Below, piece after piece: positions 13,478 to 20,402 of a stretch of 64,000 nucleotides of DNA. The notes below the pieces were generated by a model. That model ran no database searches. It was not told the DNA's origin and worked only from the letters and a program-made list of their open reading frames with translations. A program made the position numbers and the translations under genes. The stretch covers positions 1-64,000 of the forward strand of contig KN880473.1 of assembly GCA_000934385.1 (NCBI GenBank), read 5' to 3'. Position 1 is the stretch's first letter. Each line of letters begins with the position of its first letter. Origin of the DNA: Cylindrobasidium torrendii FP15055 ss-10. Its lineage: Eukaryota; Basidiomycota; Agaricomycetes; Agaricales; Physalacriaceae.

Positions 13478-16400
13478 ATGCAAGTGCAGCAACCGCTGAG
13501 CGTGCCGCTCTGGTCGCTGCTGATCCCCAGCGCACCCGTCGCGTTCAATGCGGAGTCGGCATCAAGCACTCGGCTCTACCAAGAAATTCGACTCATTCCT
13601 GCCTATGTCGCGGCGGCGACGGCAGTGTACACCATCATTTCGTCCTTGACCACCTATTTCCGCTCATCGAAGAAACCAGCCGCGACTGGCAAGGCACGGA
13701 CGTACGTCCAGTCCGTCGGCGGGGCCGTCCTGGTCGTGTGCTTGTTTTTACGCGTTCTATCGTCCATCGCACTTGCCGTGCTTACTATAACCGCGCCAAC
13801 ACATCCCAAGGTCGCGATCGCAGAATGCATTGTTTTCGTACGTGATCGTGTCGCGAACAAGCTCTGCGTCTTACCACGACCATCTAGCTCTACACGGCTC
13901 TCCTCGCACTGAAGCCATCATGGCATGGACGCTACAACCTGGTCATACTCTCCGCATGCGCAGTGTACTTCTACAGGGACATATTTCCCTTCATGACCTT
14001 TGACAAGTCTCCGATGGATGGTGCCCAAGGTGGCGTGCTTTGGGCGAAGATTGCGGTCCTGGCCTTCATCGGCGTTGTTCTCCCGCTAGGCGAACCTCGC
14101 AGGTACACCCCCCTGGACCCCGACGCGGACTACCCTGCAAGCCCCGAGCAAACGGCGTCCATATTCTCCCTGGCCATGCACCAATATCTTGACCCTCTCG
14201 TCTGGAAAGCATACGGACTTCCCCATCTTCCAGCGGACCAGCTGCCAATACTTCCGGATTACGATGTCGCTCGTGGCCTTCGTACCAGGGTGTTCCCATA
14301 TCTTGACCAATTCCAAGGCGCGCCCAAGCGCCATCTCTTCTTTGGATTGATGAGGGCGTATTTCAAGGACTATGTTATCCTATTCACCTGCGTCTGTGCC
14401 CATGTCGTCCTGACATTCATCAGTCCAATTGGCCTCAACAGACTCCTGACGTATGTGCTCAAAGTTCGATACTATTTTATGCTCACATTGCGATCAGGTA
14501 TCTCGAAACAGCCGGCGAGGGTATGTCCATCCGACCTTGGGTTTGGATCGCGAGTCTCTTTGTTGGGCCATTCCTCGCGTCAATCACCATCCAGTGGTAC
14601 ATCTTCGTTGCCACCCGCCTCATCGTGGTCACCCAGGCCATCCTCACCCAACTCACATTCGAACATGCCCTGCGCATTCGCGTCAAGGCATCAACCGAGT
14701 CCAACAAGGAGGCAGAGAAGAAAGATGAAGACGCGGACACCAACATCATCGGCAAAATTACCAACTTGGTCACTACGGATTTGGAGAACATCGTTGAGGC
14801 GCGCGACTTCCTATTCTTAGTTGTTTACATTCCCTTCCAAATTGCGCTTTGCATTGTATTCTTGTATCTCATCATCGGATGGAGGTATGTTTGGTCGTCT
14901 CTGTTCAGGTTGCGAAGCTGATGTTTGTAGTGCTTTCATTGGCCTTGCTTGTATCATTGCCTTGCTTCCGGCGCCCGGGCTTGTCGCCAAATTCACGCAG
15001 ACTGTCCAGGAAGGGCGTCTGAAGAAGACCGATGGACGAGTGCAGCTGGTGACCGAAGGTCAGTCGATACCTCAAAGGATACTTAGGCATCGCTGACATG
15101 AAAGCAAAGCGCTCAATGTTCTTCGCATGATCAAGCTTTTCGGCTGGGAGCGCAGGATGGAGGACAAGGTTGGAGACAAGCGTGAAGAGGAGTTGACCTG
15201 GATTAGGCGTAGGCAGTATCTCGAACTGACCAACGCTATTGTCAAGTGCGTCCTCCCTGCCTCGCGCCGTTTTCGACTAATGCATTCGCCAGTTTCTTTA
15301 TCCCGCTCATCACCATGATTGCCACCTTCGGATTCTAGTATGTGTCCCTTTCCATGCCCATTATCACTTACTAACTACTTCTCCAGTGTATGTTGTTCGT
15401 GAGGTCCTAGATTCAACTCCGCTAATCAAATTCATGCAGACTATCGCAATGAAGGGAAAACTTACAGCGTCCATCGTCTTCTCGAGCATGACCGTCCTGG
15501 ATATGTTGCGCGACCATCTGTACACGATCTTCGGTGTCATCACGGCTACCATCGCAGGAAAAGTCTCCCTCGACCGTATGGACAAGTTTTTGGTCGAGGT
15601 ACGCAACCTATGCCCATTACTTTGTCACAGACTGATGTCCTCTTTCAGACGGAACTCCTCGACACTCACACTACTGCGTCGCCCGATAATGTATTCATTG
15701 GTGTTGCCCCACCCGAAGGCAAGGTTGGGTTCAACAACGCAACATTCACCTGGTCGGCGTCGGCTCTGGACGATGGGAGTGTCACCCCCAGCAGACGCGG
15801 ATTCACTTTGTCCATCGACCATCTTGTTTTCCAAGAGGGTTGTATCAACTTGGTCGTCGGTGCGACGGGATCAGGGAAGACCAGTCTTCTTATGGCTTTA
15901 CTTGGTACGCCATTTGACTAGCCATTCTTGCGGTTTTCTGATGATAATACAGGCGAGATGCACTTCATTCCCACTAGTGCGGACTCGTGGTTCAGTCTTC
16001 CTCGCGAGCGTGGTGTGGCTTATGCCGCGCAAGAGTCCTGGGTTCAGAACGAGACGATCCGTGATAATATCCTGTTCGGGTCCCCATACGACGAGGCTCG
16101 CTACAAGAAGGTCGTCCATGATTGTGCGCTGGAACGTGACTTCACGTTGTTTGAGGCTGGAGACAAGACGGAGGTCGGAGAGAAGGGCTTGACCTTGAGT
16201 GGTGGACAGAAGGTGTGTGCTCATCAAGCCTCGCCCAGGATTTTATGCTCATCCAATACCCAGGCAAGAGTAACTCTCGCTCGCGCGATGTACTCCTCCG
16301 CGGAGATCATTCTTCTGGACGATGTCCTCGCAGCGCTCGACGTACACACCAGCAAATGGATCGTAGACAACTGTTTCTCCGGTGAACTTGCGATTGGACG

Positions 16401-18693
16401 TACCATAATCCTCGTCACGCACAACATTGCCCTCACGCAGCCCATTGCGTCGAATATTGTCTCAGTCAAGGACGGTCGGATCGTAGCTACTGGGGCCCCG
16501 GCGTTGGTACGCCTGCCGACGGAGGTCAAGCTTGAGCTCAAGCAAGACGAAGAGCACATCAAAATGGCTGACGCTGCGGAAGAAGTGGACGGGCCTCAGC
16601 CTGAGGGTGAACCAGTGAAGAAGGATTCCAACGAGAAGTCGGGTCAACTCATCATGGCGGAGGAAATTGAGGAAGGACACATCAGTTGGCCCGCATTGCA
16701 GCTGTACTTTCAGTCACTCGGCGGTGGAAATGTCTGGATGTTCTTCCTTGCATGGCTCGGAGGCTTGTCCTTGACCCAGGTCTTTGCGGTCGCGCAGAAG
16801 TGGTGGTTGGGATACTGGGCGTCTATTTCTGCGGAGGATACCAATGTGGCATAGTGTGTCCTTTCCTCGTTGGCTGAAGATATGACTGAAGGCTTTCTAG
16901 CTATATTTCAATCTATACGCTCCTCGGAATAGGCGAGTTTATTGCCTTTTCAGCGGCGTATTTCGTGTATATTCGTGGTAGCATCCGTGCCTCCAAGAGC
17001 ATCCATGCCCGACTGGTAGAAAGTGTCCTTGGCACGACACTCCGCTGGCTCGACAAGACTCCGGTTTCTCGTATCATCGCACGCTGCACGCAGGATATCC
17101 GCGCTGTCGATGGTCCCGTCGGCCAATGGTTCTACTGGACTGTAGACCTCACCATCATGCTCCTCTTCAAGCTCTTCGCTATTGTCTCTTCGACCCCGCT
17201 ATTCATCCTTCCTTCCCTCGCAGTGTTCATTGCTGGCGCTGCGGTAGGTCAAGTCTATATCAAGGCGCAACTTTCCGTCAAACGCGAGGTCTCCAACGCA
17301 AAGGCGCCTGTGCTCGGACACTTTGGTGCTGCTATCGGCGGGCTGGCGTCTATCCGGGCGTATGGCGCTCAGATGCGGTTCATTGACGAGAGTCTCAAGC
17401 GCATTGACGCGTATTCACGACCGAACAGGACGTTCTTTAATTTGAACCGCTGGGTGTGCATTCGCGTTGATGCATTAGGTGGACTGTTTGCAGCGGCACT
17501 GGCGGCGTATTTGGTGTATGTGATAGGTGCTGAGCAGGCGTCGAGCACGGGCTTCCAGTTGAACATGGCAATCGGGTTCAGTGGGTTGATTCTGTGGTGG
17601 ATTCGCAATTTGAATGAGTTTGAGGTGCAGGGTGCGTTCTCTGTTCTGTTCTGTTTTGCAATGTGGTGAGTATGTGTACTGAAGAGACTGTGCAGGTAAC
17701 TCGTTGGAGCGTATCCAGCACTACTTGACTATTGAGCAAGAACAGGCGCCCACAGCACAGGGTGTCCCTCCGGCGTTCTGGTCTGCCAGCGGGAAGCTTG
17801 TGGTGGAGAAGCTCTCTGCGCGGTATAGTCCAGACGGTCCTAAAGTTCTTCATGATGTTTCATTCACAATCAAGAGTGGTGAACGTGTTGGCGTTGTGGG
17901 GAGGACAGGCTCTGGAAAGTCGAGCTTGACGCTGGCGCTTCTGAGATGCATTCCAACGGAGGGCGCGGTTTGGTATGATGGGATGGATACAAGGGATGTG
18001 AACCTGGAGGCGTTGAGGAAGGGCGTGACAATCATCCCGCAAATGGTGTGTTCTCCATTGCACTTCTTGGTATTGCTTATTGATGTCGTGTAGCCCGAGC
18101 TCCTCAGTGGCACACTCCGCCAGAATCTCGACCCTTTCGACCAGTACGACGATAAGACTTTGAATGACGCCCTGCGTGCTTCCGGTCTCTTTGCGCTTCA
18201 AGAAGAACAAGCAGAGAACACTGATGCCCAGGCGGAGGAGAAGGTCAAGCTTACGCTGGATAGTTCCATTTCGTCTGGCGGAGGAAACCTGTCTGTTGGT
18301 CAGAGGCAGATCATTGCCCTTGCTCGTGCCATTGTCCGGCAGAGCAAGCTGCTGATTCTCGACGAGGCGACGTCGGCAATTGATTATCGCACGGACTCTA
18401 TCATCCAGGAGTCGTTGCGCAAGGAGTTGGATAGGGATGTGACGCTCATTACGGTGGCACATAGGTTGCAGACGATTATGGATGCGGATAAAATCGTGCG
18501 TTTGTATCTATCGTTTCTTGGATGTCGATGCTGATGGGATGCCTTGCAGATGGTCCTTGACGCGGGTCGCCTTGTGGAGTTTGGGGCTCCGAGAGATTTG
18601 GTAGCAACTGAGGGTGGGCGCTTGAGGGCCCTCGTCGACGAGAGTCGAGACAAAGATATTCTCATCGAAATGGCCATGAGTGAAAAGAAGTAG
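13478..18693 (+). CDS. ABCC-family (MRP-type) ABC transporter with a 1-nt exon
   Basis: Full-length exporter of 1503 residues in 15 exons: 13478-13837, 13888-14450, 14498-14884, 14931-15058, 15110-15245, 15293-15337, 15387 (one base), 15440-15598, 15649-15904, 15953-16212, 16264-16853, 16901-17631, 17696-18045, 18094-18495 and 18550-18693. An N-terminal hydrophobic region precedes TMD1 and NBD1 (Walker A GATGSGKT 664-671; signature LSGGQ 760-764; Walker B IILLDD, where the usual catalytic Glu is Asp as in many ABCC NBD1s). Then come TMD2 and NBD2 (Walker A GRTGSGKS near 1274; LSVGQ 1388-1392; Walker B LLILDE, Glu1413). This asymmetry is typical of ABCC pumps, which export conjugates or drugs at the plasma or vacuolar membrane. 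The substrate is unknown. Confidence 0.93.
15387..15387 (+). other. Single-nucleotide microexon of the ABC transporter
   Basis: One T lies between an acceptor (CTCCAG, with branch site ACTAAC) and a donor GTATGT. The introns are 15338-15386 (49 nt) and 15388-15439 (52 nt, branch site GCTAAT). The T completes the Tyr540 codon (TA from exon 6) so that Thr-Ile-Ala-Met follows, giving [12 protein letters not shown]. Without it the codon becomes TAA. With it the whole coding sequence is 4512 nt, divisible by three. Confidence 0.8.
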
Positions 18694-18856: not shown

Positions 18857-20402
18857 ATGGCTAGCGTAAGCCGCGCTCTCCTCAGGATGTGAGGGATCTG
18901 ATGAGACAGAATAGAGCAGCAAAGTGTGTTTTATCGACCAACTACCTGATACCGCCCTTCGTGCCATCTTCCTGCGATGTCTTCCTGATTTCGAGACCAA
19001 GGTCATAATAGGCATCCCCAGTGGACGTTGGTGCACCGAGCGGGAGTCCTTGAAATACAAGCGTAAAAGTGCCCCATGGTCGCTTCTTTCTGTGTCGAAG
19101 CGCTGGAATACCATTGCGACTGATTCGGGAGAGCTCTGGAGCAACCTTGTGCTTGACACAGAGGCGTACGCACGATATTCAGTGAAGAGTATCAGAGGAC
19201 GGGTGAAGGCGTACCTCTTGAGGTCGAAGGATGCACCGTTGTTTATTGTGACGCGCTTCATGGGGGACTTCCCGTACAACAAAAGCGTAGCAATCTTTGA
19301 CGCACTCCTACAAGATTCTGCTCGCTGGAAGAGATTTTACTTTGGCGGTGCCATCACACGCCTGAAGGCATTCGAAGGACGTACTTTCTCGTCGCTTCAG
19401 GAGGTACGACTCTTTGTCCTGCCAGCGGGTGCGGACACGGACGATGGCAATGAAGACTCGAAATCGTCCGCGCCAGTACCCGTTTTGACGTGGTTCCAAA
19501 ACTCCCCTCTCTCGACCTTCTATCATACTCAACAGGGCGCGGCATTCACCCTCCCTGCTAAGAGTCTCACCACCTACGTTGCCTCGGATTGCGACCTCTC
19601 GCCATTAGACTACCTCGAGAACCTCAAGGAGCTGCACATTCGATTCTTGGAAACGTCCGAAGACGCGTTCGTCGACCGCAAAGCCCGTACGCTCTCTGGG
19701 TTGCGAAAAATAGAGCTACATGAGATGATGGACTCTGGAGGCATTTACGCCTTCTTTGGGAAATACCAGACGCCCGACCTCGAGCATCTTCGTTTGTCCT
19801 ACTCAAGTGAACGACGCTCTGCGTTCCCCAGACTCGGGCACCTCCCTGGTCTGAAGAACCTTGCGCTATCCATTACCGACCCGGACGCAGAGAAGCAGTC
19901 GCGCTATGTCCTGCCGTTCCTTCGCAGCCTACCACATATCGAGGAACTCTTCCTTGGTGGGCTGGCCACAACCAAACGCATGCTGAAGACACTCGCGGTA
20001 CACACGCCCGGCGCTGAGGAGGGAAACGTCCTCAAGAACCTTCGTATCCTGCGATTCGGCATGCACGGATTTGGGATCCATTTTGGCGATATTGTGGCCG
20101 TGGCGGTGACTCGATGCAAGAAATGGATGGAATATTCAAAGCGGATGCAGTACACTGCGATAAAGGAGATCCATATTGTGAACGAGGGTTTGGACGAGAG
20201 CATGTGGGAAGAGATGAAAGGGACGTTCCCAAGGGTTCTTGGGTGGGAGAATTTCCATACGTCGGTGAAGGCGGTATTTCAGGAGGAGACGGAGTTCTAT
20301 GATGAGCTTTTTGAGGATAGGGCAGGTTATCGAGGAGGAGACAGCGACGCAGAGGATACTAAGAAGTTGTATGAGCTCTTGAATAGGCGAAACGGAGTGT
20401 AA
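18857..20402 (+). CDS. F-box protein with leucine-rich C-terminus
   Basis: Model of 498 aa: exons 18857-18865 and 18915-20402. The long frame has no ATG at its 5' end. A 9-nt coding exon (ATG GCT AGC) with a GTAAGC donor joins in frame at the acceptor GAATAG, giving MASSSKVCFIDQLPDTALR. The F-box follows (IDQLPDTALRAIFLRCLP), with its second half at APWSLLSVSKRWNTIATDSGELW. The remaining 400 residues hold irregular leucine-rich stretches (LENLKELHIRF, LPGLKNLALSI, LPHIEELFLGGL), suggesting an LRR-like target-binding surface. Expected to be an SCF ubiquitin-ligase adaptor. It is unlike the F-box gene at 5474 outside the F-box itself. It lies 163 bp after the transporter stop. Confidence 0.8.

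Follow-up and report, generated by a model that had tools for sequence, protein, structure and literature searches.

A probable one-nucleotide exon shared by an ABCC transporter gene and three of its paralogues in Cylindrobasidium torrendii

Can a single nucleotide be an exon? The question is raised by a gene in the window, a stretch of 64,000 nucleotides from Cylindrobasidium torrendii (Physalacriaceae, Agaricales in the NCBI taxonomy), the source assembly of which is a draft of 29.3 Mb in 494 contigs. The earlier note placed a lone T at position 15387 between two short introns of this gene and took it for an exon. In our analysis, this T is very probably a true one-nucleotide exon, constitutively spliced into the mRNA of an ABCC transporter, a reading strongly supported by paralogues, by the enumeration of splice solutions, and by spliced alignment.

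The 15 exons of the gene, when joined, encode a stop-free product of 1503 residues. Pfam assigns two stretches of the product to PF00664 and two to PF00005. Among the best 60 of 104 matches, the PDB structures closest to P0001, the deposited 1496-aa protein of C. torrendii FP15055, are ABCC2, MRP1, ABCC4, and YCF1. With two membrane domains, two ATPase domains, and ABCC structures as its closest matches, the gene is of the ABCC (MRP) type. P0001 is identical to the spliced product at 1493 of 1503 aligned positions, and the micro-exon site is the sole difference. The introns of the gene are 46–64 nt long, so a lone 102-nt intron at this site would be an outlier. An Rfam search gave no match. 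Elsewhere in the window, a 495-aa stop-to-stop open frame (18915–20402) carries FIDQLPDTALRAIFLRCLPDFETK near its start, which we take to resemble an F-box.

Table 1 Features of the ABCC-type gene and of the site at 15387, in window positions
Feature	Position	Strand	Evidence
ABCC-type ABC transporter gene, C. torrendii	13478..18693, stop included	+	spliced model, P0001 match, Pfam
Upstream exon, 45 nt, ends ...GGA TTC TA	15293..15337	+	spliced model; 45 nt in C35 and C224 too
Intron 1, 49 nt, phase 2, GTATGT/ACTAAC/CTCCAG	15338..15386	+	used in all four in-frame solutions
Putative one-nucleotide exon T, third base of Tyr540 codon (TA-T)	15387..15387	+	sole length-conserving solution; spliced aligner
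Intron 2, 52 nt, phase 0, GTATGT/GCTAAT/ATGCAG	15388..15439	+	sequence, spliced model, paralogues
Downstream exon, 159 nt, starts ACT ATC GCA ATG	15440..15598	+	159 nt in C35, C111, and C224; 28+131 in C10
Rival second intron, after 8-nt exon 15387-15394, GTTCGT...ACTTACAG	15395..15467	+	inferred from P0001 protein alone

The T is preceded by AG and followed by GT, and each adjoining intron has its own splice signals, with branch-like sites ACTAAC in intron 1 and GCTAAT in intron 2. This anatomy and the open frame are read directly from the DNA. The intron coordinates, the lengths (49 and 52 nt), the position of T, and the splice letters are exactly as the earlier note gave them, and in the spliced model T completes the Tyr codon and keeps the 1503-residue frame without a stop. 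When T is kept, the joint reads TTC TAT ACT ATC. When the two introns are removed as one, TA (15336–15337) meets A (15440), and the joint becomes TTC TAA, again as the earlier note had it. The alternative joints at the site are TTCTATACTATC (T kept), TTCTAACTATC (102-nt excision), and TTCTATGTATGTTCGTCC (a second rival joint).

We enumerated the splice solutions between fixed anchors (188 bp), allowing zero to two GT–AG introns of 35–150 nt each. Four of the 91 combinations at the window locus are in frame and stop-free. All four use intron 1, and their internal exons are 1, 1, 8, and 5 nt long; none of the combinations with a single intron or with no intron keeps the frame. Therefore, within the limits of the enumeration, some micro-exon of 1–8 nt is forced at this locus, and a single-intron reading of the site is set aside. 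The claim of the earlier note that every other acceptor fails was mistaken, since three further in-frame, stop-free solutions exist. One of them, the 22-aa solution with the 8-nt exon, yields the joint of P0001 (FGFYVCSSIVF). The in-frame products are 29 aa (1-nt exon) versus 24, 22, and 21 aa, and T joined at 15439 is the sole solution with the 29 residues of the family.

Paralogues in the genome were found with a transmembrane-segment search; 17 stretches were taken, and the six closest genes, including the window copy (C43), were read closely. The window copy reads TA–intron–T–intron–ACT, C35 and C111 read TA–intron–T–intron–ACC, and C224 reads CA–intron–T–intron–ACA, in which the codon is His. 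The structure thus recurs in three paralogues, all on other contigs than the window, with the exon T at 138552 (C35), 67369 (C111), and 11100 (C224). In the two remaining genes, one or both introns are absent. C10 reads ...GCG ACA TTT–intron 2–ACT, without intron 1 and with Phe in place of Tyr, and C173 reads ACC TAC ACA, with neither intron and with Tyr kept. The earlier note proposed looking for such relatives in other species; they are present in the same genome. Two more distant ABCC genes (C276 and C49) have uninterrupted coding through the site.

The exons around the site measure 45/1/159 nt in C43, C35, and C224, and 181/1/159 nt in C111 (181 = 136+45). At C10 the exons are 46 nt and then 28+131 nt, and at C173 there is a single fused stretch of 205 nt (45+1+159), so that the relatives with intron loss retain exactly the one base. 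The four proteins with the 1-nt exon are pairwise 46–53% identical. When corresponding introns are compared, 10 of 12 pairs fall within 1.7 SD of shuffled controls, and the two exceptions, with z of 2.2 and 2.5, both pair a first intron with that of the window copy. Therefore, the boundaries have been kept, and the intron sequence is mostly unrecognisable. The exon base is T, never C, in all four copies, a bias too weak to use. C224 (L041 2050–2154) contains two in-frame AG-T-GT motifs, either T of which may be the 1-nt exon, with introns of 51+53 or 69+35 nt and the same protein.

To compare the recurrence with chance, we dinucleotide-shuffled each intervening stretch 5000 times while its first six and last three bases stayed fixed. 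An AG-T-GT motif with both halves of at least 40 nt arises in 4.1% of the shuffles for the window, 2.1% for C35, 1.7% for C111, and 1.5% for C224. In the real loci it is present in four of four, at the same codon. The recurrence of AG-T-GT in four loci exceeds chance.

For spliced alignment, we wrote a protein-to-DNA aligner without a minimum exon length and ran six homologues (P0066, P0003, P0093, P0115, and P0086, all five from other species, and P0045) against each of the four loci. The queries were chosen from models unbroken at the site and therefore carry the family length. The 1-nt exon was picked in 24 of 24 runs. Forbidding its donor costs a score of 28–30 at C43, where the substitute crosses a stop, and a modest 15 at C35 and 14–20 at C111. 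At C224, where the loss is 5, the aligner turns to another 1-nt solution, which makes the choice between the two T bases ambiguous. In whole-gene runs of P0045 on the six genes, 1-nt exons appear four times, at this site only; in the run on C10, one in-frame stop and some abnormally short exons fall in a part that aligns poorly and from which no conclusion is drawn.

The deposited C. torrendii proteins bear on the same joint, their splice structures being inferred from the protein sequences alone. P0241, from C111, equals the product with the 1-nt exon at 1107 of 1107 compared residues. The enumeration for C111 lists 39 in-frame solutions, and a single one of them, with the 1-nt exon, gives the joint of P0241. 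P0282, from C35, reads TMLTHGRQTIG, a one-intron solution with a single 97-nt intron. Three copies of one structure are apparently annotated in three ways, with an 8-nt exon in P0001, a 1-nt exon in P0241, and a 97-nt intron in P0282. Among 120 of 275 matches listed in a search for short homologous proteins, meant to catch transcript-derived fragments, none is by its identity a C. torrendii transcript product, the best being 54–56% identical. In the same 120, 34 proteins cross the site (the six shortest alignments partially), and none of the 34 has an insertion or deletion there.

Many models of other mushrooms break at the same codon. The first homologue set is the best 120 of 998 matches, or 119 without P0001. 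Scanning for rows whose length differs from that of the window gene within 8 residues, we count at most 2 of 119 at positions 440–518, 8 at 524, 15 at 530, 56 at both 536 and 542, 51 at 548, 5 at 554, and none at 560–596; from 602 on, nearly all rows differ, as the stretch is variable. Models aberrant within 10 residues of the site are 56 of 82 in Agaricales versus 0 of 35 in other Agaricomycetes, with a Fisher p of 1.5e-13 that is only a guide because the rows are related; two of the 119 rows lie outside this split. The orders are those we presume for the genera, except that Cristinia, Plicaturopsis, Cylindrobasidium, Hymenopellis, and Fistulina were looked up. Aberrant models occur in 20 of 29 Agaricales genera, counted without Cristinia. 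The length within 10 residues of the site is unchanged in the other 63 of the 119, and Thr follows the site in 62 of them; the 56 breaks are a lower bound, since some of the 63 (P0008 and P0119) are garbled at equal length.

The breaks take a few forms. In 16 broken models, Val follows the site residue, as if a GTN donor had been read through (P0038 is doubtful and may have lost Thr). In five, the site residue is joined to a later in-frame acceptor (e.g. TYASKV), and in four the run before the site residue is skipped (P0039 was dropped from this group). Limited to a single intron that starts at the same donor, the C111 locus would likewise give a TYASI-type model, as in broken models.

A second set was found with C111 (best 120 of 124 matches; 106 new, 104 without P0241 and P0282). 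Here the contrast is weaker, with 23 of 40 Agaricales versus 12 of 62 others aberrant near the site (p = 1e-4), so restriction to Agaricales is not established. Of the 12 non-Agaricales, eight have an intact junction and are altered next to it, two are without the region, and two (P0322 of Artomyces and P0343 of Gloeopeniophorella) differ at the Tyr–Thr junction itself. Among the 23 Agaricales, the junction is kept in at least P0327. Four models of Lactarius indigo (P0304, P0307, P0315, and P0323) share an insertion, perhaps a retained intron, of ~17 residues; it immediately follows LT and lies a few codons past the site.

Two 'lgn' proteins read through the site. P0310 (1577 aa, longest contig 5188) reads LTYTIF, and P0248 (1568 aa, longest contig 5102) reads TTYTVV. 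Both contigs leave little space for introns and are therefore probably RNA-derived. The three Schizophyllum models nearest to P0310 (P0336, P0321, and P0332; 74.6–77.5% identical) are all altered at the site. The reading through of P0310 and P0248, set against the altered Schizophyllum models, is suggestive but falls short of proof. Conservation beyond the C. torrendii genome is judged from damaged protein models.

The deposited model of the window gene offers another joint, in which intron 1 is followed by the 8-nt exon and the rival intron of Table 1, and the protein is 7 residues shorter. It is in frame and equals the public P0001. However, it swaps 10 residues for VCS at a site where unchanged-length homologues have Thr almost without exception, it lowers the PF00664 score from 165.7 to 161.4 bits, and its donor, GTTCGT, is a poorer fit than GTATGT. 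Each paralogue would also need its own ad hoc short exon (e.g. 7 nt at C35), and we consider this model very unlikely to be right. An assembly error, with a base missing at a normal intron boundary and no micro-exon, would likewise restore a normal frame by a one-base difference, but three more loci, each on a contig other than that of the window, have AG-T-GT at this codon, which leaves such an error next to no probability. The two adjacent short introns, ~100 nt in total, also recall stwintrons as described in the accessible literature, in which one intron sits inside the splice signals of a second and the two are excised as a unit. If the full stretch were excised, however, the joint would read TAA in C43, C35, and C111, and at C43 the frame is lost with fewer than two introns. 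A stwintron is removed whole, with no base left and the frame kept; the window joint has a stop instead, and a stwintron here is highly improbable.

The remaining alternative accepts the exon and makes it a switch, with controlled inclusion of T deciding between a full transporter and none. The earlier note had read the site as such an on/off choice. Skipping of T does create the stop in three of the four loci, and a micro-exon switch has been reported for Trichoderma Xlr2, as far as the accessible text goes (PMC11121469). But the sequence evidence we examined bears no sign of regulation, and the frame is lost whenever a micro-exon is skipped whose length is no multiple of three, so that a stop upon skipping is no special sign of a switch. 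Recurrence of the structure in four paralogues agrees with a constitutive exon, the skipping of which would be an error. The on/off proposal is therefore unsupported, and controlled inclusion is unlikely here; a family-wide, splicing-dependent switch on transporter output, through TA-T-A becoming TAA, seems just as doubtful.

In the favoured reading, a one-nucleotide exon whose constitutive inclusion we infer, two ordinary short introns lie one nucleotide apart within a conserved Tyr–Thr pair (TA-T-ACN), close to where the first transmembrane domain ends. Short fungal introns are generally considered to be recognised across the intron (intron definition). Each of the two introns is complete, with its own donor and acceptor, and would therefore be recognisable alone, so that either may leave first. 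Simultaneous occupation of the sites on either side of one base is hardly feasible, so removal of the introns would most likely be sequential, with T retained. Where T is skipped by an excision of ~100 nt, the resulting TAA would probably expose the faulty mRNA to nonsense-mediated decay.

As to origin, we favour the gain of intron 1 beside an older intron 2, followed by joint loss in C173. Intron 2 would be the older because a precise loss of intron 1, with intron 2 kept one base away, is hard to achieve by cDNA-mediated loss. The deep branches of the homologue tree are weakly supported, so the tree gives no dated origin. It is somewhat more likely than not that fixation of the exon predates the radiation of Agaricales or belongs to its early phase, and that several ABCC paralogues per genome have kept the exon since.

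Such an exon would account for the loss or gain of residues at a single fixed codon in the ABCC models deposited for many mushrooms. This matters to users of these models, as gene-finding software often errs here, and it suggests a search route for more such exons, namely a clade whose protein models all break at the same codon. Four diverged copies, a single-intron relative, and a no-intron relative form a natural series for studying the origin of the exon, the order of intron loss, and the spliceosome at sites one base apart.

Exons of this kind are already known. Supported nuclear one-nucleotide exons were found in three gene families in the literature searched, from which subscription journals were mostly absent; its accessible text reports no such exon for an ABC transporter or for any nuclear gene of a basidiomycete, and within it the ABCC case would be the first in a basidiomycete. 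A 2011 report remarks that the records of some species give 1 bp as the shortest exon, unproven by experiment (PMC3064661), and mitochondrial cases appear in the accessible literature.

The comparisons that follow keep to the accessible text of the reports cited. In Arabidopsis APC11, a one-nucleotide exon A lies between two introns of 422 nt in all, and its inclusion was demonstrated with cDNA and changed constructs (PMC4674806; PMC8831610). As in the ABCC gene, a single base between two introns is essential to the frame and was missed by annotation, and intronless relatives (rice and most monocots for APC11) carry the base inside one exon (PMC4674806; PMC8831610). Sequential intron removal has been argued for APC11 as well (PMC4674806). 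In contrast to this plant gene, with its base A, longer introns, and cDNA proof, the ABCC case is fungal, with base T and shorter introns (PMC4674806; PMC8831610). The 1-nt exon of plant VPS55, supported by RNA-seq and RT-PCR and with alternative isoforms in some plants, likewise spans distant species, was missed by annotations, and is absent from one gene copy; it occurs in one of two gene clades, and the ABCC exon in four of six copies (PMC8831610).

Fusarium CYP621A is also a fungal nuclear gene with an intronless relative. The base between its two short introns completes a codon within a conserved motif, and almost all of its models have a wrong joint (PMC12940212). Unlike the ABCC exon, that of CYP621A is a G in an ascomycete P450, is confirmed by SRA data, and belongs to one orthologous group; its report mentions no relative with just one intron, whereas the ABCC family has C10 (PMC12940212). 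For the ABCC pair an origin by intron gain is favoured, as opposed to the base-loss-and-rescue idea for CYP621A (PMC12940212). Stwintrons, in the accessible accounts, pack two spliceosomal introns together as the ABCC site does, but they are excised whole, whereas the ABCC site would keep one coding base. What is unusual in the ABCC case is U as the exon base, the presence in four paralogous copies, and the graded intron states in one genome.
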